This document shows positions 1,738 to 18,606 of a DNA stretch of 49,186 nt, one piece after another. Position numbers and translations under genes: made by a program. Position 1 is the first letter of the stretch; every line of letters begins with the position of its first letter. The notes below the pieces were generated by a model that was given only the letters and a program-made list of their open reading frames with translations, did not search any database and was not told the DNA's origin. Source of the DNA: a virus. Where the stretch lies: positions 1 through 49,186 of IMG/VR virus record IMGVR_UViG_3300027043_000011. One strand, 5' to 3'.

Positions 1738-1740
1738 GGT

Positions 1741-2511
1741 TTATCCACTTTGCGATGGTAGGTGTGGGAAGATCGCAGCAGCGGCAGACGTCGGACGCTT
1801 ACTTTGATCCAACGGTTTACCGCCTCCCGCGTACGAATCACCCTCCGTCACCTGCTTGGCCAAGGCGTGCAGGACCTTAACAAAGGCCGGGTTGTCGCCC
1901 GCGCCAGTAAGTTCCATAGCTGCCTTGAAGTCAGTCACGAGCTTTGGGTTCTGCAAGCCGTCTAAGGCTTTGGAGATTGTTGAGATCAGCGGCGAGTCGG
2001 GGCCATGCTTCCCGTCCTTACCGGTTAGTTTCCCCGTCTCTGGGTCTTTGAGTAGCGAGTCGCGCCATTCGCGCCTCAACGCCCAAAACGCCTCATTGCC
2101 GGCTTTCTGCATGTCTTCAGCCGACTTGATGGAATGTTTAGAATAGAAATCAACGAGTTTCTGGGCTTGCTCTTGGGTAAGGCCAAGCTCTTTAAAGATC
2201 GGATTGACCTCCTCTGAAAGGCCAGTGTCAAGCTCATAACCTTCCGGTACTTTCCAGGCCTCGTATTTCTCGGGCGCGCCAGAAGGTTTAGGCGCATCTT
2301 TCGGTGGAGTTTCACCAGGCTTAGGCTGATCCCCTTCGGCAGATGGAGCCGGCTTGGCGGCGTCCCCAGCTGCGGTAAGAGCGGCTGCGATCGAAGTGTC
2401 ATTCGTCGAATCCTTCGGGTTCGTCCCCGTCCCCGGCCCATCGCCCGGCGGAGTCCCAGTTCCGTTCGTCGTCTGGGTTACGTCGGTCGAGGAATTGTTC
2501 GCTCCTGGCAT
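1741..2511 (-). CDS. Head scaffolding protein
   Basis: A 256-residue protein directly upstream of the capsid gene. The first 90 residues are low complexity, rich in Thr, Gly, Pro, Asp and Lys. The middle and C-terminal parts are helical and charged (EEVNPIFKELGLTQEQAQKLVDFYSKH, then a region ending in LAKQVTEGDSYAGG). This composition, with an EQAQKLVDF helix, is characteristic of podovirus scaffolds that are expelled when the head matures. Its start lies 113 bases inside the end of the Bbp19-like gene, a large overlap for this compact genome. The assignment uses composition plus position. Confidence 0.75.
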   Translation of the reverse strand: MPGANNSSTDVTQTTNGTGTPPGDGPGTGTNPKDSTNDTSIAAALTAAGDAAKPAPSAEGDQPKPGETPPKDAPKPSGAPEKYEAWKVPEGYELDTGLSEEVNPIFKELGLTQEQAQKLVDFYSKHSIKSAEDMQKAGNEAFWALRREWRDSLLKDPETGKLTGKDGKHGPDSPLISTISKALDGLQNPKLVTDFKAAMELTGAGDNPAFVKVLHALAKQVTEGDSYAGGGKPLDQSKRPTSAAAAIFPHLPSQSG

Positions 2512-2815
2512 TGCCTTGTTCCTTCATCATTTGGATGTATGCTTCAGGTGCGGCGTGCATGATCGCTTGAAGCAATATCAATCCTATATTGCGTTCGCCT
2601 TCCTTAAAGGCCGTTCCCATCGCGTCGCCTGTGTAAGACGGCGCAAACACGTGGCATCGTTCAAGCAGTTCACGAGTCCAAGCTCGACCACCAGGAGTGC
2701 GAAGTAGATCCTGGATAACCGCATCATCACGCGCCTCGATTTGGCGTTCAAGCTTACGCGCTCGGCGACGCGCTCGCTTTTCTTCAGGCGTTTCGTATGG
2801 ATCATGCAATGGCAT
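2399..2815 (-). CDS. Bbp19-like small head-module protein
   Basis: I start this gene at the ATG at 2813-2815 (MPLHDPYETPEEKRARR), giving 138 residues. Upstream ATGs exist but would extend the overlap with the muralytic gene. The segment ARDDAVIQDLLRTPGGRAW, then LLERCHVFAPSYTG and AFKEGERNIGLILLQA, matches my memory of the Bbp19 family: a short helical protein next to scaffold and portal in BPP-1-like phages. Its exact role is not known to me. The C-terminal 37 residues are read from DNA that also encodes the start of the scaffold in another frame. Confidence 0.7.
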   Translation of the reverse strand: MPLHDPYETPEEKRARRRARKLERQIEARDDAVIQDLLRTPGGRAWTRELLERCHVFAPSYTGDAMGTAFKEGERNIGLILLQAIMHAAPEAYIQMMKEQGNARSEQFLDRRNPDDERNWDSAGRWAGDGDEPEGFDE

Positions 2816-3413
2816 CAAGCATTCCAATGCTCTCATTAAGGATTCGGGCGGTTCGTGAAGTCCAATCCTTGCCGAATCGCTTAAATCCTTGGGTCTCTTG
2901 GTAAACCTCCTGCCGACGTTTAGCAAATCTTACGTTAACGCCGGCGACCGTGGAGGGAGTGATAGCTGCCACGGCCGCCGACGTCCTCGGGCCCCATTGG
3001 CCATCATTTACCAAGCTCAGGCTGACTTGGAGAATGCGGGTGGCTTCCGTCGATCCCTCGTTGACCGCCGAATCAAAGAAGGAGAGGTCAAGGCCCGAAG
3101 GGAGTGAACCGCAATGTGGTTCCCAATACCAGTGATAGTAAATCCAACGGCCTTCTGATTCGGAGATCAAACTCACAGGCCGAGTGGCAAGGCCATGGCT
3201 CTTCCGATAATGATCGTATTCTCGCTGGATGATCCCGCACATGGTCTTGCCGCCTGGATCGCCCGCGTCATCAGAAAAGTTGTGCTTGATATCGCTCCAA
3301 ACGAAATTGCCCCATCCTCCAGGCGGCTCGACGCATTCCTCGTGAAGAATGAAGGGTAGACAGCGGATGAAGCGAACTGGCTCCGAAACATTTTGGTATC
3401 CCTCGAGGGTCAT
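2802..3413 (-). CDS. Glycoside hydrolase 108-like muralytic enzyme (endolysin or virion lysozyme)
   Basis: This 203-residue protein carries a motif resembling the GH108 (secretion-activator-type N-acetylmuramidase) signature: an N-terminal acidic residue region (FILHEE), then SDDAGDPGGKTMCGI, followed by aromatic-rich helices (EGRWIYYHWYWEP) and a C-terminal region with NDGQWGPRTSAAV that resembles the family's peptidoglycan-binding helix. It should cleave the murein glycan chain. It has no signal peptide or membrane segment, so release would need a holin. Unusually, it sits inside the head module between the portal (ATGA overlap) and the Bbp19-like gene, so a virion-associated role is an alternative to host lysis. 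Confidence 0.75.
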   Translation of the reverse strand: MTLEGYQNVSEPVRFIRCLPFILHEECVEPPGGWGNFVWSDIKHNFSDDAGDPGGKTMCGIIQREYDHYRKSHGLATRPVSLISESEGRWIYYHWYWEPHCGSLPSGLDLSFFDSAVNEGSTEATRILQVSLSLVNDGQWGPRTSAAVAAITPSTVAGVNVRFAKRRQEVYQETQGFKRFGKDWTSRTARILNESIGMLDAIA

Positions 3414-5242
3414 ATCGCGCCTCCTTGCGGCCCAACTGGCCTCGCTCCACCGCCAACTCCAAGGCGGTTCATCGCAAGTTCAAGCGCTGACTGTCCACCA
3501 CCCACATCGGTCTGCGATAGCGTTTGCGCCCCAACCGCGAGCTTCTGCGCGGAGTCTGCTTGCTGTGCAGCTTCCTGTTGAGCCTGCGCTTGCTGACGGC
3601 GCTTGCGGATTTCGGCGACGACCCTCGGATCACGGATGATCTTGGGGTCGTTGTTCATGAGGTAGTTGTAGCGCTCGAAGTAGTAGTCGATATCAAGGTT
3701 GTCCATAACCGCTGGGTCGACACCGGCAAGGTTGCCGGCGATTTGGATGATACGATCCATGCCTGAAGTCTTCGCTGCTTGTTGAGCGATTTGGAGCATC
3801 GAGACGTACTCAATAGTCATATCCTGGCCTTGAAGGGCGGAAGGGGCTTGTGGAAAGAGTCCGGCTCGTTGGCAGATGGCAAAAGTTCGTTCGATTGCAG
3901 GTGCCAATAGCTCAAGCTGGAGACGCTCCAACACCGGTCCAAGCATAATAAGAGATTCGGCTCGACGGGCGTTGATTTCCTCAGCAGTGACATTCGAACG
4001 CGTCTGAAACTGGGAGATAGTCTGGAAAAGATCATTGAAGAATATCCGCCCGATGCGCTGTCGAATCAACTCCAGGTTCTCGGTCATGGCCTGAAGGTCA
4101 GGCCGCCAATTCCCGTAGATCGACTGCATTGCTGGTGAAGGCGAAGACATAAGCCCTGCGACGTGCGTAACGCCGCCAGGAATCATACTCGCTGGCTGGT
4201 TCTTTAACTGGATATCGGCAACGAGAGGAGGATTGACGTGCTTGTCAATCCCTTGCGCTTGTCGTCGAACTTCAAGTTGCAGTTGCTTACAGTCTGGGAG
4301 AGCATCCATCGCAGGCGATCGACCATAAGCGTCATTCGCGACAGTGTCCCAACGCGGTGTAATATGAGGAGCTTCGTGGAAACCTCGCTTTTCAAGAAGG
4401 CCGGGGGCAAAGGAGCTTCCACCCTGAGGACTAGCACTTCCTCCCCATTCCCAATAGACCTCTCGATACTTAAAGTGGCTAGGGACCCCGAACATTCGTG
4501 CTTGAGTATTAGGCTCGATGGCGTGGGCGATAATGACTTCTCGGGTCTTTCCCGAGCCGGTTCCGTCCTTGTATTGAGCGGCGACGCTGGGGGAGCAAGC
4601 CTCAAATCCCCACCGTTCAACGACCTGAGCGGTGGTATAAGTGAACTCACGATAGAAAACATCCACCCGATTGAGTTGATGGTTGACGTCAGCGTAGTAT
4701 TCGCCGAAGCATGGATTGACGCAGTTGATGACATTCTCATTGTCCTCATAGATGATCATCGAGCCTGTACCGAAGATCACCAAATCGAAGTAGAGGATCG
4801 CAAGGGATTGATAGAAGTTCGAGGCCTGGAACACGGCCATCAGGATTTGCTCGACTTGGTTTAACCAAATCGCAACAGCGTCAGTGCCAGTGGAATCGAA
4901 ACGACCAAGCTTTAGGCGAAACCAAGGCGCGGTGGGATTTGTGATCCCATACATCATTCCCGCGGCGAGGTTGCGAGCAGCCAGAGTAGGAGTGCTATCA
5001 AGAATATGCTGATTGATTGGAGAGCCACGGCCCATTTGATTAGGGGTAATAAGCCACTTGTAGCGGCGAGGAAGGAAGAAATCAGCAAGTTCACGAGCGT
5101 GAACCCACCAGGAATAGCGATTAATCCTAAGCCCAAGAAGACGACCCTCCACATGCCGACGGAGAGCAAGCTCTGTATCGGTTGGAATGCGGGTGCCAAA
5201 GGCTCCCGCTAGTTCAGCTTGTCCGCCCTGAATCGCTACCAT
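3410..5242 (-). CDS. Portal protein (podovirus head-tail connector)
   Basis: A 610-residue protein of the size and composition of T7-type portal proteins. It sits between terminase and scaffold. The N-terminal region RRHVEGRLLGLRINRYSWWV and the segment STPTLAARNLAAGMMYGITN are typical of the podovirus connector family, as is the late region FQTRSNVTAEEINARRAE. The C terminus is Gln- and Ala-rich (RKRRQQAQAQQEAAQQA), a common feature of the portal barrel. It forms the dodecameric ring through which DNA is packaged and ejected. Its start lies 29 bases inside the preceding small gene. Confidence 0.88.
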   Translation of the reverse strand: MVAIQGGQAELAGAFGTRIPTDTELALRRHVEGRLLGLRINRYSWWVHARELADFFLPRRYKWLITPNQMGRGSPINQHILDSTPTLAARNLAAGMMYGITNPTAPWFRLKLGRFDSTGTDAVAIWLNQVEQILMAVFQASNFYQSLAILYFDLVIFGTGSMIIYEDNENVINCVNPCFGEYYADVNHQLNRVDVFYREFTYTTAQVVERWGFEACSPSVAAQYKDGTGSGKTREVIIAHAIEPNTQARMFGVPSHFKYREVYWEWGGSASPQGGSSFAPGLLEKRGFHEAPHITPRWDTVANDAYGRSPAMDALPDCKQLQLEVRRQAQGIDKHVNPPLVADIQLKNQPASMIPGGVTHVAGLMSSPSPAMQSIYGNWRPDLQAMTENLELIRQRIGRIFFNDLFQTISQFQTRSNVTAEEINARRAESLIMLGPVLERLQLELLAPAIERTFAICQRAGLFPQAPSALQGQDMTIEYVSMLQIAQQAAKTSGMDRIIQIAGNLAGVDPAVMDNLDIDYYFERYNYLMNNDPKIIRDPRVVAEIRKRRQQAQAQQEAAQQADSAQKLAVGAQTLSQTDVGGGQSALELAMNRLGVGGGARPVGPQGGAI

Positions 5243-5420
5243 AACGTTCTAGCTCATAGAGATGACAGATATGGGGGCAGGCTCGACTATTTGGTTGTCC
5301 CCAATTCACCCAAGCCCAATTTACATTGTCGACGTGTTCGAGCACTCCAATAGCTGCCTCACGTCCACGAAGCCTGCACTGATCCCCTACAGATGGCAGA
5401 TTTGGTGGTTGCTTCTTCAT
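5214..5420 (-). CDS. Small hypothetical protein upstream of portal
   Basis: A 68-residue protein starting in an ATGA overlap with the preceding small gene and ending 29 bases inside the portal gene. It begins MKKQPPNLPSVGDQCRL and is rich in Trp and Asn (NVNWAWVNWGQPN). The segment around GDQCRLRGREAAIGVLEHVD could be a small beta-barrel (SH3 or KOW-like), but I cannot place it in a family. The tight overlaps support it being translated. Confidence 0.55.
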   Translation of the reverse strand: MKKQPPNLPSVGDQCRLRGREAAIGVLEHVDNVNWAWVNWGQPNSRACPHICHLYELERYGSDSGRTS

Positions 5421-5560
5421 GAGCTTCCGTCACCATTTTCAGGGAACGCCGTTTTGGCAGGGGAAGCTTCCGCCGCCGCCACCTGATCCGGGGTTAAAGT
5501 CGTTGATTCATTCTGCCGATCGAAACGCCCATCGCCCATCATGAGCGCGAGCGCCATCAT
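5417..5560 (-). CDS. Small hypothetical protein
   Basis: A 47-residue reading frame starting with two ATG codons at 5555-5560. Its first ATG overlaps the previous gene's stop as ATGA, and its own stop overlaps the next start in the same way. That chain of couplings is the main evidence that it is real. The N terminus is Met- and Leu-rich (MMALALMMGD) and the rest is acidic and Ala-rich. No family is recognised. Confidence 0.5.
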   Translation of the reverse strand: MMALALMMGDGRFDRQNESTTLTPDQVAAAEASPAKTAFPENGDGSS

Positions 5561-5766
5561 GAAGAACTGATCCGGGGGTCTTTCCACCAGCCATCTCCTC
5601 CAAGCGGCGATGACGCGCCACGTTTGTGGTCATCGGCTTCGCCCTTCTTGAGAGCGATCACACGTTGGTCCTCCCGCATCCGCTTATGCCACGCATCGGT
5701 CACGGGCTGCCCTGCGCGGTAGACCTCAAGCGCCCGCTTCTCCATCTTGAAATCAGACTCTGCCAT
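5557..5766 (-). CDS. Small hypothetical protein
   Basis: I start this at the ATG at 5764-5766, which has GGAG six bases upstream, giving 69 residues. A longer frame would need a TTG start. The protein is charged and probably helical (KMEKRALEVYRAGQPVTDAW, then KRMREDQRVIALKKGEADD). It ends in an ATGA overlap with the next gene, so it belongs to the terminase-portal transcript. No function can be assigned. Confidence 0.5.
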   Translation of the reverse strand: MAESDFKMEKRALEVYRAGQPVTDAWHKRMREDQRVIALKKGEADDHKRGASSPLGGDGWWKDPRISSS

Positions 5767-5862
5767 GTGAATCTCCAACCCATCGTTCGAAGGCTCCACC
5801 AGATGAAACGCCAAGTAAGTGGGGTGGCTTTGACATCCGGCATCAGTCCTGCATTGGCCATG

Positions 5863-6123
5863 TCATTGACCTAAAAGTGTTTTCTGACCCATCTGACCCT
5901 GAGGCGTGGTGACCGCACCGGCGATGCCTGGGTTGACTGCTGGAGAGCCGACGTTAGTTGGTGTGCTTGAGCCGAGGATCGTTCCGCCGAATCCGCCAGT
6001 TCCAGGGTTCAGCGTTCGTTGCATTCCGCCTGCGGCCTGCTGCGCTTGGTTCCCATACATCGGGGGATTAGGTGGTGGGCCCGGGGCTGGCGGTAGCGGT
6101 GGGGGGGAGGGAGAGGAGGTCAT
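5863..6123 (-). CDS. Proline/glycine-rich small protein after TerL
   Basis: The ATG at 6121-6123 shares a base with the TerL stop (TGATG), giving 86 residues. The first 20 residues are nearly all Ser and Pro, and the rest is rich in Gly, Asn, Gln and Thr. Such a chain is probably disordered. Its DNA includes a run of seven G on the plus strand near 6100, a possible slippage site. The coupling to TerL supports translation. The role is unknown; scaffold-like or head-completion helper functions are guesses. Confidence 0.5.
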   Translation of the reverse strand: MTSSPSPPPLPPAPGPPPNPPMYGNQAQQAAGGMQRTLNPGTGGFGGTILGSSTPTNVGSPAVNPGIAGAVTTPQGQMGQKTLLGQ

Positions 6124-7646
6124 CAGTTCAGGCTCGCATAAGGGTTGTAGTCGGCAGGGATTGACTTCGTCAACGCATCGTAGGGATGGTACTCCCCGTG
6201 ATCCGCTGGGTCCTCGATGTGATAGCCGCCATGCCGAATCTCCTTCGGATCGCAAGGAAACGCGAAGGTGCAGGCCAAAGCGTCGATGTCGTCAGGGGAG
6301 GGCTTGCCCTCCCGCATCATCACTTCCTTACTCGTCAGAATAATCGCATCTTTGTTGTTGAATGTGTAAGTGATCGAGAGGAGCTGGGCTTTGAGGTCGG
6401 GATCAGGCGGCAGGCATCCGGTTTTAATCCAAGAGCGCAAGGAACCATACATCTCTGCTCGCTTATTGGCGTAGACCTCGCCTTGCGTATCAGTGTCTCC
6501 ACCCACTCCAGCAGCCCTAGCTCCGAACTGGACCTCGAAACAATGCATTTGCATGTGTCGCACCTGATCCACCACACCTCCACCAACGCCACCTCCGTCG
6601 ATCATGATTCCATCTGCTCGAAGCTCCCGATTGGCGATTTGGACTTGGGTGGCGAGTTCGACCGTCGAAATCCCCTGATGCCGCCGGCGAGGAATAGAAG
6701 CAGCGTCGCGACCACGGCGAGGATAGATAACGCTAAAATTCGAACCAAACCTTGCCACATCAACACCAAGCACCAGAGCACCAAAAGGATAGTCAGGCTC
6801 CCTGGCCATTGCCTCGTCAATCTCCGTACCATTGAAGAACTCCATCTCACCAACGCGAGGGAACTCGCCCTTGACTCTGATACGGAAGAAGTCGGAGTCC
6901 TCGCCGCCGAACTCCTTGACCCATTTTTCGATTTGCTTTTTGTTGGTGAAGCTGACTTGTCGCGAATCCACACGAGTTTGGAACCACTCGGATGATGCGT
7001 CAAAACACTTCTTGAAATGCCCTGTGTTACGTGTTGGGTTACCAAACACGGCCCAGATGATCTGCGTATCGGCATCGGTCATGGCTCCTTCAGCCACTTC
7101 CCAGATGATGTCCGGAATGGCCGAGGCCTCGTCAAAGACCAGGATCAGGCGACGCCCATGGTTGTGTAGTCCTTGAAAGGCCTCGGTGTTGCGCTCGGAC
7201 CATGGCACCATATCGATCCGCCAAGTCCGTTCGCGATCTTTGTCGACGGAATAGATCGCCGTTGGGGTCAGTTTGAAGAGATGGCGGGCAATGAATAGGT
7301 TATACCACCGACCGAGCTCGGCCCAAGTCTTCGTGCGAAGCTGGGACTCAGTGTTGGCGGTGACCACGCCACGTGTATCGACCATGGTCGAAAGAGCCCA
7401 AAGAATGAGGATCGAACACAACGCCGACTTCCCAACACCGTGACCGGAAGCGGTTGCGAGCCGAATGGCTGTGTTGATATCGATCAGGCCATCTCGAACA
7501 GCCTCAAGGAGTCGAAGCTGCCACTCTTCTGGGCCAAAGGAATTCGCGAGCACGCCCTCACCCCACGGAAAAGCCGAGTACGCGAACGAGACTGGATCGT
7601 CCGAGACTGAGGCCAACCAGGAGATGAGGGCGTCATCGTTCATCAT
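6123..7646 (-). CDS. terL: Terminase large subunit
   Basis: A 507-residue packaging motor with both expected halves. The ATPase shows a Walker A motif in ATASGHGVGKSALCS (about residues 66-76) and a Walker B in RRLILVFDEASAIPD. The RNase-H-like nuclease half contains LGVDVARFGSN, an IDGGGVGGGVVD strand and a final SPDDIDALACTFA, which supply the acidic metal ligands. It would cut concatemeric DNA and pump it through the portal. The start is an ATGA overlap with the TerS stop; a second ATG follows immediately. The type of DNA ends cannot be decided from sequence alone. Confidence 0.92.
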   Translation of the reverse strand: MMNDDALISWLASVSDDPVSFAYSAFPWGEGVLANSFGPEEWQLRLLEAVRDGLIDINTAIRLATASGHGVGKSALCSILILWALSTMVDTRGVVTANTESQLRTKTWAELGRWYNLFIARHLFKLTPTAIYSVDKDRERTWRIDMVPWSERNTEAFQGLHNHGRRLILVFDEASAIPDIIWEVAEGAMTDADTQIIWAVFGNPTRNTGHFKKCFDASSEWFQTRVDSRQVSFTNKKQIEKWVKEFGGEDSDFFRIRVKGEFPRVGEMEFFNGTEIDEAMAREPDYPFGALVLGVDVARFGSNFSVIYPRRGRDAASIPRRRHQGISTVELATQVQIANRELRADGIMIDGGGVGGGVVDQVRHMQMHCFEVQFGARAAGVGGDTDTQGEVYANKRAEMYGSLRSWIKTGCLPPDPDLKAQLLSITYTFNNKDAIILTSKEVMMREGKPSPDDIDALACTFAFPCDPKEIRHGGYHIEDPADHGEYHPYDALTKSIPADYNPYASLN

Positions 7647-8173
7647 GCCCTCCGAATCATCTTCACGACGTTGTCATGCCCACCCACGGCTCTAGCTTCC
7701 TTCACGGCCTTGACTCGCTCGCTTGCCCTCTCAAGCTTGTCGCCGAGGTTCATGTTGAGGTTGACCTTGGTTTCTTGTCGGGCGAGGCCGGTGCGGTCAG
7801 ACGCGTCAGCTGAAATCTTCACGAGATCGCGGAGTGGGATATCCTGTGGAGCCTCGGCTAGCCTTCGAGCGATTTCCTCATCTGCGGCCGTGCGATTGTG
7901 GCGTTTGAGGTTGGTGTTGTAGTCGACCTCGCTCACAAGCTCGATGTTGAATTCACCAGCGTATTGAGCGACAAGCTCGGCCATAGCAGGCGTCGCCAGC
8001 CAATTCCGAATGGTCTGGCCGGTTCGGTTGATCATGGCGCCGATTTCTGTCGGCTTGGCCCCACGAGCATAGAGTTGCGCCACCGTGTGGTGGACTTCCC
8101 TAATGCTCGCGACCGATCCCTTAGGACGACCTCGCGGCGCCTTTTCGATCGGGTCGACGCTGAAGATTTCCAT
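7643..8173 (-). CDS. terS: Terminase small subunit (probable)
   Basis: Starting at the ATG at 8171-8173 (MEIFSVDPIEK), preceded by GAGG, the protein has 176 residues. An N-terminal helix-turn-helix is visible (LYARGAKPTEIGAMINRTGQ, then TIRNWLATPAM), as expected for the DNA-recognition subunit of terminase. The rest is helical and charged, suitable for oligomerisation. It is immediately upstream of and coupled to the large subunit. The name rests on the helix-turn-helix plus position. Frames extending upstream overlap the preceding gene and look less likely. Confidence 0.75.
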   Translation of the reverse strand: MEIFSVDPIEKAPRGRPKGSVASIREVHHTVAQLYARGAKPTEIGAMINRTGQTIRNWLATPAMAELVAQYAGEFNIELVSEVDYNTNLKRHNRTAADEEIARRLAEAPQDIPLRDLVKISADASDRTGLARQETKVNLNMNLGDKLERASERVKAVKEARAVGGHDNVVKMIRRA

Positions 8174-8384
8174 ACTTCGCCTCATACGCGCGCTCGAACT
8201 CAACGCTTCGATCGAGCCAAGCCACCTTCGCGAGAGTGATCGGCCGAGACGCAAGGGTCGTCGATGCCGCTCCGATTCTCAACGCCGTTTCAATCGCATG
8301 CCGCTCCTCGGCCTTGCCGCGCGCATGCTTATCCCGCAAAGCCTTGGCGTTGATGTTGTGGCCGATGGTTCCCCAATTGCTCAT
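8121..8384 (-). CDS. First gene of the leftward late operon, unknown
   Basis: The ATG at 8382-8384 follows GGAG and is about 14 bases downstream of the predicted transcription start of the minus-strand promoter at 8405-8433. The 87-residue product is basic and helical (NAKALRDKHARGKAEERHA), with a second part ending in RRPDRKGAARSS. It overlaps the start of the TerS gene by 53 bases. It may be a DNA-binding or packaging accessory protein, but this is inference from charge and position. Confidence 0.6.
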   Translation of the reverse strand: MSNWGTIGHNINAKALRDKHARGKAEERHAIETALRIGAASTTLASRPITLAKVAWLDRSVEFERAYEAKYGNLQRRPDRKGAARSS

Positions 8385-8404
8385 ACAATTCTCCATTCTC
8401 TTCA

Positions 8405-8433
8405 ATTGTCCCATGGATCAAGGCGAATGTCAA
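8405..8433 (-). promoter_or_regulatory. Sigma70-type promoter for the leftward packaging/head operon
   Basis: Read on the minus strand: TTGACA (8428-8433), a 17-base spacer, then GACAAT (8405-8410). This is close to the host consensus and points at the first leftward gene. The spacer contains a copy of the ATCAAGG heptamer (8417-8423 on the plus strand) that is repeated in the nearby control region, so a repeat-binding protein could compete with RNA polymerase here. Confidence 0.75.
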
Positions 8434-8743
8434 GCGAAATCGTTCCGCTTGGCGTGGGTGTGGCAATTTGCCACACAATCAGGAGTTGTATCTGCAACCC
8501 AGGGTTGAAGTGATTTTGGCGAAATATTTTGTCGGTGAGTCCTCCGGGACCCGGCGAACGCCGGCTTTTGGCCCCCCGGGGTGGGTCGAGGCCACTCGCG
8601 GAGCGGGAATCCTTGCGAAAGTTCGCGCTCCGAGTGCAATCGAAACCTCCCAAGGCCGCGCCAAAGGCAATCAAGGCCAAAGGCTTGCAGGAATCGGCGA
8701 ATCCTTCGGGGCGAGTCCTTCCTCGCGTGTGCTTCCGCCCCTG
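8434..8743. other. Non-coding spacer with stem-loops
   Basis: I see no convincing gene here; the open frames lack ribosome sites and protein-like composition. It holds a perfect hairpin with arms CCGGCG (8551-8556) and CGCCGG (8559-8564) followed by CTTTTGG, which could act as a weak terminator for rightward transcripts. It also has a larger imperfect stem between 8593-8605 and 8626-8636, and one more ATCAAGG copy at 8670-8676. The rest is GC-rich and unremarkable. Confidence 0.45.
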
Positions 8744-9255: not shown

Positions 9256-9615
9256 ATGGGACGTTTGATCAAGCAGGTTGCGGCAGAGAAGAAGGCAAAG
9301 AACGAAACGCTTCGGGAGTTGCGCGCCGCGTTCAAGGCCGCAGAACGCAAGATCAAGGCTGAGATCGAGGCTTTGAACGAAGAAGCCAACGAAATTCGCG
9401 CAGGGAAGGCGCAAGCCAAGGTTGACGCGAAGGCGGCAAAGATTAAAGCCGCTGAGGCGAGGGCAGAGAAGAAGGCAGCCAAGGCCGCAGAGGCAGAGGC
9501 GAAGCTCGCCGCGCGCAAGCTGAAAGAGCAAGCCAAGGTTGCCAAGCGCACGCCGCTCACGACTACGGCGCTCGTTCGACGGAATGGAACGCAGAGTGTG
9601 GAGTTGGGCGCGTAA
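9256..9615 (+). CDS. Lys/Ala-rich coiled-coil early protein
   Basis: I choose the ATG at 9256, preceded by GGAGTGA, because the longer frame would begin upstream of promoter P2. The 119 residues are almost entirely Lys, Ala, Glu and Arg in long predicted helices, such as RAAFKAAERKIKAEIEALNE and a later stretch of repeated KAA/EA units. The protein would be a highly basic, extended coiled coil, reminiscent of histone H1-like tails. It may bind DNA or RNA non-specifically. Low complexity prevents a family call. Confidence 0.65.
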   Translation: MGRLIKQVAAEKKAKNETLRELRAAFKAAERKIKAEIEALNEEANEIRAGKAQAKVDAKAAKIKAAEARAEKKAAKAAEAEAKLAARKLKEQAKVAKRTPLTTTALVRRNGTQSVELGA

Positions 9616-9629
9616 GCGCCCTTCTCTCT
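9606..9629 (+). terminator. Hairpin terminator after the K/A-rich gene
   Basis: Arms GGGCGC (9606-9611) and GCGCCC (9616-9621) surround GTAA and are followed by a pyrimidine run, TTCTCTCTC. The gene's TAA stop lies in the loop. It is a plausible weak intrinsic terminator or a 3'-end stabiliser before the next gene. Confidence 0.5.
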
Positions 9630-9649
9630 CAAACTAAGGAGTAAAGACA

Positions 9650-9877
9650 ATGGCAGGTTATCACTTTCACAAATGCGCTCATGGTCACGAATGGGGTCAT
9701 GAGCAGAGCGTTTTCGAGAAGAGCGAGGAGGAGTACAACGCCGCGCATGACTGCCCAAAGTGTGGAGAGAATGTCCGCAATGTGAGCCGATTTCCCGATC
9801 AGGAGGCCGAAAGGGAGTTCATGGATATCCAAATGGAGCAAATGATGAGGGCAATGTTTGGGGAGGAGTACAAATGA
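9650..9877 (+). CDS. Small zinc-ribbon-like protein
   Basis: A 75-residue protein with a His/Cys-rich N terminus (GYHFHKCAHGHEW) and a second pair in CPKCGEN (Cys35 and Cys38), which could together hold a zinc ion. The C-terminal half is acidic and helical, ending with MEQMMRAMFGEEYK. AAGGAG stands before the ATG, and the stop overlaps the next start as ATGA. It is probably a small nucleic-acid- or protein-binding early factor. Confidence 0.65.
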   Translation: MAGYHFHKCAHGHEWGHEQSVFEKSEEEYNAAHDCPKCGENVRNVSRFPDQEAEREFMDIQMEQMMRAMFGEEYK

Positions 9878-10092
9878 AATATACCCTTAGTCTATCAAAT
9901 GCTGGCATAGGCACAGCATGGGAGACCACGTTCGAGATGGCCAATGAGACAATGGCCATCGACTACTGTAAGCGTCTCCTCACGCGTGACGCATGGCGCT
10001 GGCAGAACTCGGAGTGGCAACTGTGGACGGCAGCAGGTGATCGTCTCGTTTCCTCGTTCATGGTCACTTCCGCCATCACCGTAGTCGAGTGA
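9874..10092 (+). CDS. Small early protein, unknown
   Basis: The ATG at 9874 overlaps the previous stop (ATGA) and follows GGGAGGAG. The 72-residue product reads MKYTLSLSNAGIGTAWETTF and continues through an alpha-beta-looking chain (DYCKRLLTRDAWRWQNSEW). It has the length and feel of small ferredoxin-like host-takeover proteins, but there is no recognised motif. It precedes a strong hairpin, so it is the last gene of its transcript block. Confidence 0.6.
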   Translation: MKYTLSLSNAGIGTAWETTFEMANETMAIDYCKRLLTRDAWRWQNSEWQLWTAAGDRLVSSFMVTSAITVVE

Positions 10093-10099
10093 TCGTCGT

Positions 10100-10126
10100 A
10101 GGGGTGCGACAAATCGTCGCACCCCT
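10100..10126 (+). terminator. Strong hairpin directly abutting promoter P3
   Basis: Arms AGGGGTGCGAC (10100-10110) and GTCGCACCCCT (10116-10126) are perfectly complementary around AAATC, an 11-bp stem. There is no U tract; the last base of the stem is the first base of the P3 -35 box. The 15-base sequence GACAAATCGTCGCAC occurs twice, at 10108 and 10128, so one copy overlaps the promoter itself. It may end upstream transcription, bind a regulator, or both. Confidence 0.6.
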
Positions 10127-10154
10127 TGACAAATCGTCGCACAATCCCCATATG
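10126..10154 (+). promoter_or_regulatory. Early promoter P3
   Basis: TTGACA (10126-10131), 17-base spacer, CATATG (10149-10154). The -10 box departs from consensus at its first base. An inverted repeat, CCCCA (10146-10150) and TGGGG (10162-10166), brackets the -10 region, as in three other promoters of this series. Confidence 0.6.
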
Positions 10155-10182
10155 TATAAGGTGGGGGCAAGGAGTGACCAAA

Positions 10183-10434
10183 ATGACTGTTATGGTAACG
10201 ATGACGGTTCGATACGAACTCAAGAGCACTAACGCCGACGATGGCACGCACCGCAACGCGGTCCTTACCCAAGAGATCAGCGATTGGGTACAGAACCGCA
10301 GGGCGCTCAACAACGCCATTGCAGATGGAGCAGAGGTTATCTTCGAGACGGCGGAAATGGAAAGCCGGACTTCGCACTATTCGAAGCGTTCCCTCGACAA
10401 GCACACTATTTCCTCTCGTCGTGACGAGGATTGA
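10183..10434 (+). CDS. Small early protein, unknown
   Basis: The ATG at 10183 follows AAGGAGTGA and P3; a longer frame would start inside the promoter. The 83-residue product begins with a beta-like segment (MTVMVTMTVRYELKS) and continues with charged helical sequence (REAL-like ALNNAIADGAEVIFETAEM). It ends in Ser, Arg and Asp residues. No family is recognised. It is followed by the first of four double-hairpin elements. Confidence 0.55.
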   Translation: MTVMVTMTVRYELKSTNADDGTHRNAVLTQEISDWVQNRRALNNAIADGAEVIFETAEMESRTSHYSKRSLDKHTISSRRDED

Positions 10435-10445
10435 GCACATAAGCG

Positions 10446-10502
10446 TTGAGTGAGCAGACGCGGGGAGTGCCGAAGCACTCCCCCAGCCTGCCCATTGGCA
10501 GG
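10446..10502 (+). promoter_or_regulatory. Double-hairpin leader element, copy 1
   Basis: TTGAGTG (10446-10452) is followed by stem 1 with arms GGGGAGTGC (10462-10470) and GCACTCCCC (10475-10483) around CGAA, then stem 2 with arms CCTGCC (10487-10492) and GGCAGG (10497-10502) around CATT. A GTGGAGG ribosome site and the next ATG (10524) follow. Three further copies keep the structure with different stem sequences. Confidence 0.75.
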
Positions 10503-10523
10503 ACAAAAGGAGTGGAGGCAACT

Positions 10524-10868
10524 ATGGAAGACTGGGATGAAGTGTTCGGCCTTGGAGATGCAATAAACACAACTGACGCGAGGATTTCAGATGGAAACAT
10601 CAGGAAGATAAAAGATCACATCATAAATCAGCTAGAACAGCAAGACTGCTCTGCATCTTCCCGATGGGTCCACGAGGTGTCCGAATATCAACACACATCA
10701 GGAAAGGGCAACTACTTTCCACCTTTCATGGTAAATCAAGAGCGTTGGAATGAACTTGTGAAAAATCTTCGCAAGTTTACGCTAAAAGTGTCCACTAACG
10801 GGCGCGTTACCGTGGATTGGGATCACGCCCCAGCATTACCTCGCGAATGGTATTGCATTGGTCTATGA
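10524..10868 (+). CDS. Early protein, unknown
   Basis: The ATG at 10524, after GTGGAGG, fits the conserved leader; upstream starts would lie inside the hairpin element. The 114-residue product is acidic at the N terminus (MEDWDEVFGLGDAINTTDAR), has a central helix (GNIRKIKDHIINQLEQQD) and ends with a basic and aromatic segment (NELVKNLRKFTLKVSTNGR). It lacks a recognisable domain. The stop falls just before the second double hairpin. Confidence 0.6.
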   Translation: MEDWDEVFGLGDAINTTDARISDGNIRKIKDHIINQLEQQDCSASSRWVHEVSEYQHTSGKGNYFPPFMVNQERWNELVKNLRKFTLKVSTNGRVTVDWDHAPALPREWYCIGL

Positions 10869-10869
10869 G

Positions 10870-10917
10870 TTGAGTGATGGGGCCGTAACTGGCCCCATTG
10901 CCCAGCCCTCTGGCTGG
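10870..10917 (+). promoter_or_regulatory. Double-hairpin leader element, copy 2
   Basis: TTGAGTG (10870-10876), stem 1 arms ATGGGGCC (10877-10884) and GGCCCCAT (10891-10898) around GTAACT, spacer TGC after one T, stem 2 arms CCAGCC (10902-10907) and GGCTGG (10912-10917) around CTCT. A GGAGG site and the ATG at 10930 follow. Both stems differ from copy 1 by compensating changes. Confidence 0.8.
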
Positions 10918-10929
10918 ATGGAGGCAAAC

Positions 10930-11340
10930 ATGGAGTTTCAAGAACCTAAAACCAAACTCGCCGAACAACTCGCAAAGGCACAGAATGTCAATGATAAAAT
11001 CCATGCGTTGGTAATCTTCGCTCGAAGCGCAATCGAAGCGATCGAAGAACTTCAACGCCGAGTGACTGCACAAGAACAAGCTCTCGGCGATTTGCGTGAA
11101 CAACTCGCGAAGACACCACGTCGGGCCAAGACCGGGCCTGATTTGGTGTCAACGCAGAGTCTTGCGCAAATGGCTGGAACCACAGCCAACATCGAGCAAA
11201 CCTACGTTGTCAAACACATCGCACGGAAATACAGCGAGGAACACAAGCTCGAAGTGAAGCGAGGCGAAGGCAAGTCGGGACAGGATTGGTTCACACGTGA
11301 AGCAGCCGAGTACGCTGTGAACCAATTCAAGAAGCTTTGA
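10930..11340 (+). CDS. Early coiled-coil protein with C-terminal basic domain
   Basis: Starting at the ATG at 10930 after GGAGG, the protein has 136 residues. Residues 1-65 form a likely coiled coil (AEQLAKAQNVNDKIHALV, then EAIEELQRRVTAQEQALGDL). The second half is a compact charged domain (TYVVKHIARKYSEEHKLEVK, then GQDWFTREAAEYAVNQFKK) that could be a winged-helix-like DNA-binding fold. A regulator or host-takeover protein is plausible; no family is recognised. Confidence 0.6.
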   Translation: MEFQEPKTKLAEQLAKAQNVNDKIHALVIFARSAIEAIEELQRRVTAQEQALGDLREQLAKTPRRAKTGPDLVSTQSLAQMAGTTANIEQTYVVKHIARKYSEEHKLEVKRGEGKSGQDWFTREAAEYAVNQFKKL

Positions 11341-11343
11341 CGA

Positions 11344-11392
11344 TTGAGTGGTGGGGTGATTACTCACCCCACTGCCCAGGCGTTACGCTTGG
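11344..11392 (+). promoter_or_regulatory. Double-hairpin leader element, copy 3
   Basis: TTGAGTG (11344-11350), stem 1 arms GTGGGGTGA (11351-11359) and TCACCCCAC (11364-11372) around TTAC, spacer TGC, stem 2 arms CCAGGCG (11376-11382) and CGCTTGG (11386-11392) around TTA with one G-U pair. A GAGGAG site and the ATG at 11410 follow. Confidence 0.8.
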
Positions 11393-11409
11393 AAGAGGAG
11401 ACAACGCAA

Positions 11410-11706
11410 ATGAAATACGTCGTCAAGATCGAAACCCATTACAAGGAGCATCCACGTAGCAGACTCATGCAAACCATCGACGCGTACGATGGCGAGGACG
11501 CGCAACGCCTCTCGGAACTTCTTGGCGTTGACGAAATGGATCATTTACCTTTCACGCGCAAGGCAACTCCGTGCATTCGCGTGCGAACCTTCGGCCCTCT
11601 CGGTGACTTGACCATTCCAATGGACAAGATCGAAGCTGTCGGGGAGGAAATTCACAGAGCGCTAATCGAGATGGCGCAGGATCAAAAGGTCACCAAAATC
11701 CGATGA
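11410..11706 (+). CDS. Early protein, unknown
   Basis: The ATG at 11410 follows GAGGAG after hairpin copy 3, giving 98 residues. The chain looks alpha-beta (MKYVVKIETHYKEHPRSRLM, later TPCIRVRTFGPLGDLTIPMD). It contains an acidic helix (DGEDAQRLSELLGVDEMD) and ends in a Lys-rich tail. It begins much like the protein at 9874 (MKYTLSL versus MKYVVKI) but I see no further similarity. The stop overlaps the next start as ATGA. Confidence 0.6.
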   Translation: MKYVVKIETHYKEHPRSRLMQTIDAYDGEDAQRLSELLGVDEMDHLPFTRKATPCIRVRTFGPLGDLTIPMDKIEAVGEEIHRALIEMAQDQKVTKIR

Positions 11707-11795
11707 ACAAGAGCAATCTTATATGTGGCATTCTCGCGGCAATCTGTTGGATAGCCGTTTGGCTTTTCCAACAAAGAAAGCCTGATCGCCGATAA
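11703..11795 (+). CDS. 30-residue single-span membrane peptide
   Basis: The ATG overlaps the preceding stop (ATGA). The product is a short N terminus, one hydrophobic span (LICGILAAICWIAVWLF) and a basic tail (QQRKPDRR), a typical inner-membrane micropeptide with a cytoplasmic positive end. Such peptides in phage early regions often act on host membrane processes or superinfection, but nothing here fixes the role. Confidence 0.55.
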   Translation: MNKSNLICGILAAICWIAVWLFQQRKPDRR

Positions 11796-11843
11796 AACTC
11801 TAGGTTGTAGGGTACAACCCAGAGACGTGTGACAATTTGCGCA

Positions 11844-11884
11844 TTGACAAACCGCTCCCTACCCGCTATATTGAGTGGGTAGGG
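11844..11884 (+). promoter_or_regulatory. Early promoter P4 with dyad across the -10 box
   Basis: TTGACA (11844-11849), 17-base spacer, TATATT (11867-11872), a near-ideal sigma70 promoter. CCCTACCC (11857-11864) and GGGTAGGG (11877-11884) form a perfect inverted repeat bracketing the -10 box. A separate small hairpin, GGTTGT/ACAACC, lies upstream at 11804-11820. Confidence 0.75.
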
Positions 11885-11899
11885 ACAAAGGAACGACCA

Positions 11900-12046
11900 A
11901 TGAAACCCCGAACTCTAGAGCAGGCAAAAGCAGCTATCAGGAACATACTTAAAAGAAAAGGTATCAAATCGAGCATGATCTCAAGACATGAGTTCGAACG
12001 CGCGGCAAGAGCAGTTCTTGCTGCACAAAAAGAGAAGAAAGCATGA
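11900..12046 (+). CDS. 48-residue basic protein
   Basis: The ATG at 11900 is the only start downstream of P4; longer versions begin inside the promoter. The product is strongly basic and helical (TLEQAKAAIRNILKRKGIKS, then MISRHEFERAARAVLAAQ). It could be a small helix-turn-helix or ribbon-helix-helix-type DNA-binding protein, perhaps acting on one of the promoter dyads. The stop overlaps the next start (ATGA). Confidence 0.55.
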   Translation: MKPRTLEQAKAAIRNILKRKGIKSSMISRHEFERAARAVLAAQKEKKA

Positions 12047-12249
12047 ATGAGTTCTTCTTCGAAGGCAACCGCTCCGGGGCCTTGCCTCCCTGTGGCCAAA
12101 TCGTTCCTCATGGAACCGACGACCACATGGCGCGTGCGCCCTACACCGGCGATCCAGACAAACTCCTGTCAGGCACCGCCGCTTGGCTTGACAAAATCCG
12201 AGGCGTTTACGCCAGCGGGCGAGAGTGCCCAAATCAAAGGTGGTACTAA
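12043..12249 (+). CDS. Small early protein, unknown
   Basis: A 68-residue frame beginning in an ATGA overlap and ending by sharing a base with the next start (TAATG). It starts MNEFFFEGNRSGALPPCG and has few secondary-structure cues. Another frame is open over the same DNA, but the two couplings favour this one. No family is recognised. Confidence 0.5.
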   Translation: MNEFFFEGNRSGALPPCGQIVPHGTDDHMARAPYTGDPDKLLSGTAAWLDKIRGVYASGRECPNQRWY

Positions 12250-12392
12250 TGGGTGATCCAGAAAACGACCCACACAAATCCCCTGACCTACCGTTTCCAA
12301 TCCTTCCAACGAGGCCGGAGGACTTTCCACCACAACCAGAGCCAAAGCCCGAACCCGAACTTCCTGCTACCCGCCCACCCGGCGAAAGCTGA
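12249..12392 (+). CDS. 47-residue proline-rich peptide
   Basis: The ATG shares a base with the previous stop (TAATG). About one third of residues are Pro, with Glu, Asp and Lys (DFPPQPEPKPEPELP), so the chain should be an extended, disordered peptide. It might be a decoy ligand for a host proline-binding module, but this is speculation. The stop precedes the fourth double hairpin. Confidence 0.45.
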   Translation: MGDPENDPHKSPDLPFPILPTRPEDFPPQPEPKPEPELPATRPPGES

Positions 12393-12395
12393 TTG

Positions 12396-12443
12396 TTGAG
12401 TGGTGAGGGCGTTCGCGCCCTCACTGCCCAGCAATCCCGCTGG
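12396..12443 (+). promoter_or_regulatory. Double-hairpin leader element, copy 4
   Basis: TTGAGTG (12396-12402), stem 1 arms GTGAGGGCG (12403-12411) and CGCCCTCAC (12416-12424) around TTCG, spacer TGC, stem 2 arms CCAGC (12428-12432) and GCTGG (12439-12443). Unlike the other copies, about 60 further bases separate it from the CGGAG site and ATG at 12506. Confidence 0.8.
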
Positions 12444-12505
12444 CGGTCCGGTGCACAGGGCTGTAGTCCCAGGCAAGACCTTAAACTGCCTAAACGGAGT
12501 AAAAC

Positions 12506-13180
12506 ATGCCTGAATACCGAATCCCGATAGCGAAAGCGAAGGGAAAGTTTGTAACCATCTCAACGGACGAAGGTTCACTCCCCGACGAGGTCTACACGTA
12601 CGCGATGTACCTTGGCCTCAAGGCGTTGATGAACCGTGGAATGACTACCATCAAGCGGGAGACGTTCGCCAGCGCCGCCGCTTACGAAACCGCCATCATG
12701 GAGGCTGCTGAGAAGCAGAAGACGATGGCGCTTGAAGGCAAGACCCGCATCGTCGGCATGGGCAAGTCGGCTTCCGCCAAGAAGTCTGACCCGATCCATA
12801 CCGAGGCCGTTCGTCTGGCAAAGAAGTACGCTCGCGAACAGGTCAAGGCTCAGAACGAACTGATCGAAGATCGTGCGGCACGCACCAAGCTTTCCACGAT
12901 CTCGGCGGCGGAATGGACGCGTACCGCCGAAGCGTACATCTCCAACGATCAGGATACGTGGTATGCGGCCGCTCGCGACAGTCTGGCCAAGGCTGCCGTG
13001 AACCCAACCAAGGGCATCGACTTCATGCCGCAGCCCGACGCCAAGCTGGTGAAAAAGGCAGAAACCGCCAGGGCCGAAAAGTCCAAGGTGGCCAAGGCCA
13101 AGGCCGAAGGCAAGACCGCGCCCAAGGCACCACCGGTCAAGGCCAAGCCTCGCAACCCCGCCCATGGAGTCAACAGCTAA
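12506..13180 (+). CDS. Abundant-looking early protein with histone-like basic tail
   Basis: A 224-residue protein preceded by CGGAG and a long leader. The N-terminal 40 residues look beta-rich (YRIPIAKAKGKFVTISTD). The middle is helical (LAKKYAREQVKAQNELIED), and the last 45 residues are rich in Lys, Ala and Pro (EKSKVAKAKAEGKTAPKAPP), like a histone H1 or TolA-type tail. A DNA-binding or polymer-coating function is likely but inferred. A hairpin and a new promoter follow directly. Confidence 0.65.
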   Translation: MPEYRIPIAKAKGKFVTISTDEGSLPDEVYTYAMYLGLKALMNRGMTTIKRETFASAAAYETAIMEAAEKQKTMALEGKTRIVGMGKSASAKKSDPIHTEAVRLAKKYAREQVKAQNELIEDRAARTKLSTISAAEWTRTAEAYISNDQDTWYAAARDSLAKAAVNPTKGIDFMPQPDAKLVKKAETARAEKSKVAKAKAEGKTAPKAPPVKAKPRNPAHGVNS

Positions 13181-13186
13181 GTCTTT

Positions 13187-13200
13187 GGGCGTAAGCGCCC
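13187..13200 (+). terminator. Hairpin abutting promoter P5
   Basis: Arms GGGCG (13187-13191) and CGCCC (13196-13200) surround TAAG, immediately before the P5 -35 box at 13202. This repeats the arrangement at 10100-10126: a hairpin fused to a TTGACA box with no U tract. Confidence 0.45.
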
Positions 13201-13201
13201 C

Positions 13202-13261
13202 TTGACAAACGGGATTGGGATCACCATATCAGGTCTAGCTAGCTAGGTGATACCCAATCCC
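13202..13261 (+). promoter_or_regulatory. Early promoter P5 with a long inverted repeat
   Basis: TTGACA (13202-13207), 17-base spacer, CATATC (13225-13230). GGGATTGGGATCACC (13211-13225) is repeated in inverted form at 13246-13261 with a single extra base. The left arm fills the promoter spacer, so the repeat is more likely a DNA operator than an RNA hairpin. Confidence 0.6.
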
Positions 13262-13278
13262 ACACAATGGAGTGAACC

Positions 13279-13776
13279 ATGTCTTTCGATATCAAGCTCA
13301 CGATCAACACCGACAATCTTGAGGTTGCTATGCTTATGGAACGCGTTCTTGGCCCTGTTGCCAACGCTCTCGCCGAAGCCATCAAACCAGCAATTGAAGA
13401 ACTTCGCTCGGAGGTGACCACGGCCAACGCGATCCTTGAAGCGTCACGTCGAGACTACGAGAACGTCAACAACCAGCGCATCAATGCGTTGAACGAGAAC
13501 GCGAACCTGATCGTCGAGAACGCCGCCCTTAAGAGTAAGCAGGAGGCCGACGTGGCGGAAAACCTCCGGCTTATTGGCGAGGTCGCAACTCTCAACGAGA
13601 AGATTGGGGAGTATAAGGTCGAAATCGAGAAGCTTGTCACGGATGGCAACGCTATCGCGGCCAAACTGCGGAAGGAACGAGACGACGTTAAGAAGGAACT
13701 GGAAGAGGCACAGGCCAAGCTGCGAAACTTCGCTACCCGTGTCCACGACATCCAGCTTCTGCTCGGCAATATGTAA
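13279..13776 (+). CDS. Coiled-coil early protein
   Basis: A 165-residue protein starting after GGAGTGA. The first 45 residues may form a small domain (MSFDIKLTINTDNLEVAMLM). Residues about 50-155 are a continuous heptad-rich coiled coil (INALNENANLIVENAALKS, then KKELEEAQAKLRNFATRV). It has no enzyme motifs. It could be a structural organiser or an inhibitor of a host coiled-coil protein. It is alone between P5 and a good terminator, so it is an independent unit. Confidence 0.65.
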   Translation: MSFDIKLTINTDNLEVAMLMERVLGPVANALAEAIKPAIEELRSEVTTANAILEASRRDYENVNNQRINALNENANLIVENAALKSKQEADVAENLRLIGEVATLNEKIGEYKVEIEKLVTDGNAIAAKLRKERDDVKKELEEAQAKLRNFATRVHDIQLLLGNM

Positions 13777-13844
13777 CATCACGTGGTTGAGGCAACATAA
13801 GAGCAAAACCAGCTAAAGTCCAACCAAACAGTTTTGTGTTACCT

Positions 13845-13878
13845 AAGGGGTCGCCCGATCAGCGACCCCTTTCGTTTG
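13845..13878 (+). terminator. Intrinsic terminator after the coiled-coil gene
   Basis: Arms AAGGGGTCGC (13845-13854) and GCGACCCCTT (13862-13871) form a perfect 10-bp stem, followed by TCGTTTG. This is the most terminator-like structure in the early region. A CCTTGAT heptamer (13889-13895) lies between it and the next promoter. Confidence 0.65.
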
Positions 13879-13921
13879 CCCTAATTGCCCTTGATTTGGC
13901 GAAAATCGGTGAACTTTTCAC

Positions 13922-13956
13922 TTGACTTTCGGACCAAAGTGTGCTATACTACTTTG
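13922..13956 (+). promoter_or_regulatory. Promoter P6 with dyad, for the middle operon
   Basis: TTGACT (13922-13927), 17-base spacer, TATACT (13945-13950). CAAAGT (13935-13940) and ACTTTG (13951-13956) form an inverted repeat around the -10 box. No further promoter of this quality is seen before 26295, so it probably drives the whole replication region. Confidence 0.7.
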
Positions 13957-13988
13957 TTACGCTGAGAAAGGGGGCAGAAAGGTGTGTT

Positions 13989-14315
13989 ATGGACCGTTTA
14001 CCACTTCCGATAGAAATCGATGCCAAGCCGTTTGGAGCACCTCTACGTCGCTCGGCGGTAGTAGAGCTACCCCCACCGCCCACCGAGGTCGAAACCGAAC
14101 CCAGCCCCGATCTAATCGCGGCCTTAGAGGTGTCTCTCGGCGACCCGCTCCACGAACTAGCCGCCTTGCTCCGCAAGATGAACATTGAACAAATGTGGGC
14201 GTTCTGCACCGGTATCGGGCAACCCAATCTTGAACGGCCGTTGATCCAGTGGGCGAAAGCCTACATGGGCGAGAAAGTTGAGGAAAGAGTGGCCACAATG
14301 AAAAGGCGCGCATGA
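13989..14315 (+). CDS. First gene of the replication-side operon, unknown
   Basis: The ATG at 13989 is the first start downstream of P6; the longer frame would overlap the promoter. The 108-residue product has a Pro-rich N-terminal third (VVELPPPPTEVETEPSPD) and a helical C-terminal part (LIAALEVSLGDPLHELAALL, then MNIEQMWAFCTGIGQP). It may be an adaptor that binds a partner protein. The stop overlaps the next start (ATGA). Confidence 0.6.
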   Translation: MDRLPLPIEIDAKPFGAPLRRSAVVELPPPPTEVETEPSPDLIAALEVSLGDPLHELAALLRKMNIEQMWAFCTGIGQPNLERPLIQWAKAYMGEKVEERVATMKRRA

Positions 14316-14482
14316 TGGGATGGGATTTTTCAGAACCGATCGTGTGGAATGTCGAGGCTATTGTTAAAGGCAAGCTTCGAGACGATGTTTTGGCCATGCC
14401 TTGGGAAAGTTATGTTGTTTATCCTGTAGGTGTTCAAGGGTGGCACGCTGAACAGGAATATGATGCGTCTTTGGAGGAATGA
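14312..14482 (+). CDS. 56-residue small protein
   Basis: The ATG overlaps the previous stop. The product is acidic with several Trp residues (MMGWDFSEPIVWNVEAIVKG, then AMPWESYVVYPVGVQGWHAE). A small beta-rich fold is possible. It ends one base before the next ATG. No family is recognised, and its main support is the tight gene spacing. Confidence 0.5.
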   Translation: MMGWDFSEPIVWNVEAIVKGKLRDDVLAMPWESYVVYPVGVQGWHAEQEYDASLEE

Positions 14483-14483
14483 C

Positions 14484-14753
14484 ATGGAACTTCCTGACCT
14501 TCCAGACGAATGGCGGTTAAAGTCCCTCATTGAGAAGGAGGGTCTGTGGCTCGCCTATGTCTACACCGATGATTACTGGATACAGGCCACAGGCTCAACC
14601 CCACGTTTCGCTATGCTCGACGCGATACAGCGGATTGAAAACGAGGCATGGCATGAAACCCTACGCTATGTCCATCGCGAGGCTGCGTCTGGCCCCAACC
14701 TCATCAAAATTCTCAACATTCAACCCGTCTCAAAGGAGCGTAGAAGGGCATGA
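14484..14753 (+). CDS. Small protein, unknown
   Basis: The ATG at 14484 follows TTGGAGGAA inside the end of the previous gene, giving 89 residues. The middle has a beta-like stretch (GLWLAYVYTDDYWIQATGST) followed by a helix (RFAMLDAIQRIENEAW). The layout, two strands then a helix over DAIQRIE, resembles small phage proteins of unknown role. The stop overlaps the next start (ATGA). Confidence 0.55.
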   Translation: MELPDLPDEWRLKSLIEKEGLWLAYVYTDDYWIQATGSTPRFAMLDAIQRIENEAWHETLRYVHREAASGPNLIKILNIQPVSKERRRA

Positions 14754-18513: not shown

Positions 18514-18606
18514 ATGTTTTGGATTATTATTGGTGTGTGTGTGTGTGTGTTATTCTTGTACTGGTGGGGCTTAGTGAAATTGACAATGTACGAGGATGAC
18601 GTATGA
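18514..18606 (+). CDS. 30-residue membrane peptide built on a TG repeat
   Basis: The ATG at 18514 follows GGAGG. The product is a single hydrophobic span (MFWIIIGVCVCVLFLYWWGL) and a short acidic tail. The VCVCV part is encoded by a (GT)n tract of about eight repeats at 18533-18549, a slippage-prone sequence. Its stop overlaps the next start (ATGA). It resembles small phage inner-membrane peptides; the role is unknown. Confidence 0.55.
   Translation: MFWIIIGVCVCVLFLYWWGLVKLTMYEDDV

Follow-up and report, generated by a model that had tools for sequence, protein, structure and literature searches.

Why should a phage place the same pair of adjacent hairpins, introduced by the motif TTGAGTG, at four gene junctions of its early region? 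The window considered here (the whole stretch of DNA analysed, 49,186 bases) is the entire IMG/VR virus record IMGVR_UViG_3300027043_000011, with a DNA polymerase gene (23670-25160) and many small genes upstream of it on the + strand, and head-tail connector and large terminase genes on the - strand. A DNA-level search of a phage collection with two stretches of the window returned no match. Among cultured phages its polymerase is closest to that of Caulobacter phage Kuura (35.6% identical), whose genome has the same general layout. The window's polymerase was also used to collect 80 related contigs, the best of them 70-74% identical. The - strand also encodes a single protein of 2927 aa (28242-37025), perhaps an internal virion or polyvalent protein, and a run of GT repeats (18530-18560) separates two early genes. 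The four elements are listed below, each with its score against a covariance model (CM) for which all four served as the training set, and with its folding z-score.

10446 to 10502, + strand: E1; TTGAGTG, a 9-nt insert, stem 1 (10462-10483, 9 bp, loop CGAA), CAG, stem 2 (10487-10502, 6 bp); CM 51 bits (training-set member), z -3.9.
10870 to 10917, + strand: E2; TTGA, stem 1 of 12 bp (10874-10901) with a tandem U-G/G-U wobble, abutting stem 2 (10902-10917, 6 bp); CM 61 bits (training set), z -5.0.
11344 to 11392, + strand: E3; TTGA, stem 1 of 12 bp (11348-11375), stem 2 (11376-11392, 7 bp including one G-U); CM 56.5 bits (training set), z -5.1.
12396 to 12443, + strand: E4; TTGA, stem 1 of 12 bp (12400-12427, UUCG loop), stem 2 (12428-12443, 5 bp); CM 57.4 bits (training set), z -5.5.

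The original prediction of two neighbouring hairpins at each of these places is borne out by the sequence, and so are the arms it gave for stem 1, which form 9 bp (in E2, eight Watson-Crick pairs plus one G-U), and a stem 2 of 5-7 bp. TTGAGTG is indeed common to all four, but E1 is divergent, with 9 extra bases before stem 1 and no tandem wobble. The motif occurs six times on the + strand of the 49 kb, four of these inside the elements. A 3-base spacer had also been proposed between the hairpins; the letters are there (TGC in E2-E4, CAG in E1), but in E2-E4 the TGC belongs to a stem 1 of 12 bp, in which GUG pairs with UGC through the tandem wobble.

That the pairing itself has been maintained is supported by several measures. 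Across 14 pairs in four copies, 98.2% of the 56 cells are paired, a value that drops to 37-55% when the partner is slid by 1-3 columns. Both sides have changed in 8 of the 14 pairs, where shuffles average 3.0 and 1 of 500 reaches 8; the covariation score of 0.69 compares with a shuffle value of 0.23 (0 of 500 as high). These figures come from only four or five sequences, with E2-E4 clearly related, and are not to be read as probabilities. One pair appears as U-A, C-G and G-C, which is hard to explain other than by kept pairing. When the exact architecture was searched for (9 bp, a 4-nt loop, a 3-nt spacer and at least 5 bp), the window held four instances on the + strand and none on the - strand, compared with eight in 60 random windows, or about 0.13 per window. 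Together with the folding z-scores and the five-row alignment described below, these results uphold the earlier claim of selection on RNA structure. Matches of the covariance model on the - strand are far weaker, and the RNA is assigned to the + strand, since the tandem U-G/G-U and the G-U of E3 stem 2 pair only in + strand RNA. The wobble pairs likewise favour + strand RNA over a cruciform at the DNA level. We also rejected the element as coding sequence. The TTG at the start of TTGAGTG shares the reading frame of the following gene in E1-E3, though not in E4 or in the fifth copy introduced below; it lacks a ribosome site, and any peptide encoded there would be altered by the paired changes on both arms. 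The copies do separate small orphan genes, as would a repeated junction sequence that aids the swapping of small gene cassettes, but such a recombination linker depends on sequence identity, which the paired stem changes remove, and we regard this explanation as barely credible.

The covariance model built from the four copies was run over 1.2 Mb of related contigs, and one match outside the training set stood out, L209:4392-4440 in genome G001 (29.5 bits, E 0.007). This copy starts 1 nt after the stop codon of the upstream ORF (4388-4390) and ends just before GGAG sites and an ATG at 4460; its stem 1 is TTGGGGCCA/TGGCCCCAA and its stem 2 CCTGCG/CGCG(T)GG. Its probable homology rests on the score of the four-copy model. 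A plain alignment of E1 with L209 (TGAGCAGAC, GCCTGC-CATT) gives an identity no higher than that of shuffles, and a second model, R2, was trained on L209, making its E-value for L209 circular. The five-row alignment lengthens stem 1 to 12 bp. Its outer pair reads G-C three times and C-G twice, and just inside this pair four of the five copies, all except E1, have U-G followed by G-U. In E2-E4 and L209, then, no gap is left between stem 1 and stem 2.

Two further explanations of the elements deserve mention. TTGAGTG and TGCCCAG are kept in sequence while the upper stem is not, and the tandem U-G/G-U persists in four of five copies while the outer pair switches between G-C and C-G, as might be expected if an RNA-binding protein of the phage or its host read UUGA, the tandem wobble and the two hairpins, perhaps at an autoregulatory site. 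We consider such a binding site rather improbable, as there is no candidate protein, the elements do not overlap the ribosome sites, the loops are unconserved, and stem 2 varies in loop and length. A conformational switch receives even less credence from us. In this scheme TTGAGTG would pair with TGCCCAG (with one A-C mismatch) into one long hairpin that excludes stem 2, and a ribosome on the upstream gene, reaching TTGAG, would select the form. The long hairpin is the minimum-energy fold for L209 and, among E1-E4, for E4 only (folded with its flanks), and in E2 it would free CCUC to cover the ribosome site; against this, flank pairing in E1-E3 does not exceed that with shuffled flanks (p 0.2-0.7), the value for E4 being borderline (0.06), and masking of the ribosome site is found in E2 only.

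The family is narrow, comprising, among the matches listed, the window phage and one relative, G001. Neither 2.9 million viral contigs nor the genomes of some 85,000 species of bacteria and archaea yielded another copy to strict patterns, which fix TTGAGTG with TGCCCAG, or E1's version of them, and which diverged copies would escape. Looser patterns gave, among the matches listed in viral contigs, only stemless chance hits, and a model search of forty records including Kuura and the window found no further credible match. L317 reached 26.8 bits with R2, at a locus picked for its conserved heptamers, so that the E-value means little, and was unremarkable in the stem check. A double hairpin on the - strand of L211 (G004, 14251-14292) lies before ATGGAGG with an E2-like outline, and leader hairpins in L210 and L224 have a similar outline; none was scored by the model and we treat them as analogues. 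The UUCG hairpin at 21814, proposed earlier as a possible relative, is not one by these measures, being a single hairpin that lacks TTGAGTG and stem 2 and was not found by the model. It is an 11-bp hairpin (21814-21839) before ATGGAGGCAAATATG, with ribosome-site wording in common with E2. The original prediction could place the elements in no known family, in agreement with Rfam 15, where there is no match at gathering score or at a low E-value. The elements are a real, narrow RNA family without an Rfam match, of a kind that is already known, namely intercistronic RNA structures of phages.

Position provides the next line of evidence. The elements begin 1, 3, 3 and 11 nt behind a stop codon, the last value being that of E1, and their surroundings are as follows.

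10183 to 10434, + strand: small orphan ORF before E1, 11 nt from its stop to TTGAGTG.
10509 to 10526, + strand: ribosome site GGAGTGGAGG and ATG (10524) after E1, mostly unpaired in folding.
10524 to 10868, + strand: small orphan ORF in the E1-E2 interval.
10920 to 10932, + strand: ribosome site GGAGG and ATG (10930) after E2, about half unpaired.
10930 to 11340, + strand: small orphan ORF in the E2-E3 interval.
11394 to 11412, + strand: ribosome site AGAGGAG and ATG (11410) after E3, about 0.85 unpaired.
11410 to 11706, + strand: small orphan ORF after E3.
12249 to 12392, + strand: small ORF before E4.
12444 to 12508, + strand: 62-nt extra leader after E4 with GGAG at its end, then ATG (12506); ribosome site 0.25 unpaired with or without E4.
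12506 to 13180, + strand: gene after E4, with orthologs in at least 12 related contigs, one of which has a hammerhead in the leader.

A GGAG-type site and start codon close behind each element, as first described, are present at E1-E3 but not at E4, whose ATG lies 62 nt further on. The strongest rival to our reading is translation control. The hairpins would act as rigid insulators, shielding the next ribosome site from upstream sequence and from finishing ribosomes, so that each small gene is translated alone with no cleavage; the ribosome sites behind E1 and E3 start 2-7 nt after stem 2 and are 65-88% unpaired, in keeping with such a role. Deleting the element in silico, however, barely changes the accessibility of the ribosome site, E4 is 62 nt from its start codon, and a plain hairpin would suffice for insulation, without the conserved TTGAGTG and wobble pairs. 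We judge insulation to be unlikely, though it is a serious contender.

From their place in the genome and the promoter-like sites nearby, we infer that the transcript carrying the elements is early. Promoter-like + strand sites occur at 10126, 11844, 13202 and 13922 (recognised by consensus only, and no more numerous than in shuffles), and from their positions E1-E3 and E4 would sit inside two early transcripts. At 11856-11885 and 10146-10166 a promoter-like -10 box lies inside an inverted repeat (TCCCTACCC..GGGTAGGGA; CCCC..GGGG), and a similar one, GCCTATATTAGGC, surrounds the -10 box of the L209 site at 2491; these repeats are possibly a shared operator. A long inverted repeat, GGGATTGGGATCACC..GGTGATACCCAATCCC (13211-13261), surrounds the promoter-like site before the gene at 13279. 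There are no terminator-like sites at the elements and no U tract follows the hairpins, which does not fit intrinsic terminators.

Two adjacent hairpins in an early transcript had suggested a likeness to the put RNAs of phage HK022, two neighbouring stem-loops in the early transcript that cause RNA polymerase to read through terminators. Closer comparison does not support the analogy. The elements recur at successive gene junctions, not once after a promoter, so that both position and copy number differ, and no target of antitermination is seen for them, the only + strand terminator-like site in 9500-14500 being upstream of the elements. Model R2 found no credible match in HK022 1-40000. An element of this type acting on RNA polymerase is, in our view, very unlikely.

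Related phages offer a more informative comparison, through what they carry at comparable places. The early ORFs of the E1-E3 run have no relatives that we could find, making synteny unusable there. The gene at 12506-13180 encodes a conserved early protein with no significant Pfam, PHROG or cultured-phage match. Among the leaders of its orthologs, that in L210 has a long hairpin interrupted by an internal loop, those in L211, L213 and L214 have long hairpins, and that in L224 has a double hairpin. The leader in G025 (L225 ~2236-2300) holds GGCCGAAA-[stem III]-UC-[stem I]-CUGAUGAGGCC, which reads as a complete type II hammerhead core and is recognised by that core only. A type II hammerhead consists of a core, CUGAUGA ... 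GAAA, with cleavage at UH, in which stems I and III are closed by loops and an open stem II closes the three-way junction. A second G025 hammerhead (L225 645-705) scores 33.3 bits (E 0.00025) against RF02276, short of that family's gathering score, 37, and one in G012 (L359 10049-10114; 33.7 bits, also below gathering score) stands directly behind a stop codon and is followed by a second hairpin and then a ribosome site. These relatives are distant, with polymerases 57% and 64% identical. More generally, strong hairpins before ribosome sites and ATG codons number 48 against 25.5 expected over 22 early regions, the window being the only one that is significant singly. What is common to these phages is the slot, a structured RNA between a stop codon and the next ribosome site, and not the sequence.

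The likeness of E1-E4 to type II hammerheads (RF02276) extends to two hairpins with a short link, set between phage genes in places like those in G025 and G012, and might suggest a new small self-cleaving ribozyme that replaces the hammerheads of related phages. The elements lack the hammerhead core, with no CTGATGA at any of them and no RF02276 match in the window, and folds of E1-E4 lack a third helix closing both hairpins. Few bases are conserved outside the helices and nothing behind stem 2, and there is no match to any Rfam ribozyme; we give this proposal a very slim chance. A broader version of it, in our view a long shot, is that the elements represent a previously undescribed class of phage RNA through which the early transcript is cleaved where genes meet, whether by a small ribozyme of an uncharacterised type or by a nuclease dedicated to UUGA and the tandem-wobble stem, and that in evolution this class and hammerheads can replace each other. 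Perreault et al. (PMC3088659) described prophage hammerheads on either side of single genes or short blocks, and suggested that these cleave long phage transcripts into mRNAs the length of an operon or a gene.

We propose that E1-E4 serve as intercistronic punctuation of the early transcript, through mRNA processing or end protection, a reading to which we assign a probability of roughly 0.45. In this model a hairpin of 12 bp (9 bp in E1) would form right behind the stop codon and be followed directly by one of 5-7 bp, giving about 17 bp of probably stacked helix that would part the upstream gene from the next ribosome site, itself left single-stranded. The helix would set and protect the ends of single-gene mRNAs, serving as a processing site for a host double-strand RNase; if there is no cleavage, it would bar exonucleases from the 3' side as well as 5'-end-dependent decay. 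RNA processing and mRNA protection were among the other options first listed, alongside the translation control discussed above, and appear to fit best because in relatives slots of this kind are occupied by self-cleaving hammerheads and long hairpins. Similarity of placement as a basis for function is analogy, not homology, and the 62-nt extra leader behind E4 counts against punctuation.

A close precedent is phage T7, which cuts its early transcript into smaller mRNAs at RNase III hairpins (R0.3, R0.5, R1, R1.1 and R1.3). When we refolded the T7 early junctions, each gave one hairpin of 9-13 bp with varying inner pairs. As with E1-E4, each early junction has an intercistronic hairpin ahead of the following gene's ribosome site, and the copies share their outer sequence but differ in their inner pairs. 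In contrast, a T7-type site is a helix of about 20 bp with an internal loop, whereas the elements have 12 plus 5-7 bp, abutting and free of an internal loop, and are distinguished by two abutting hairpins and the tandem wobble (the latter not in E1). A model search of T7 1-8500 gave no match. The T7 R1.1 site has a 4/5-nt internal loop and is cut by RNase III of the alphaproteobacterium S. meliloti, an enzyme that wants longer duplexes than that of E. coli (PMC6121014). Because of this preference the helix of 12 plus 5-7 bp may be a poor RNase III substrate, and protection without cleavage is a real alternative within the punctuation reading. According to a review (PMC3997798), an mRNA can be stabilised by hairpins located at its 5' end or close to it; these resemble the elements in lying 5' of a coding region, whereas E1-E4 lie between genes and are both repeated and covarying. 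From these analogies we infer both that the RNA is cleaved or protected at the elements and which kind of enzyme would be responsible.

The hammerhead link in relatives is the most useful new point. If the punctuation reading is true, one phage group would use several unrelated RNA devices, hammerheads included, for one task at gene borders. These phages would then amount to a natural test of what hammerheads do between phage genes and why they are there, which PMC3088659 left open, and E1-E4 would themselves be four compact test pieces with compensatory variants already built in.
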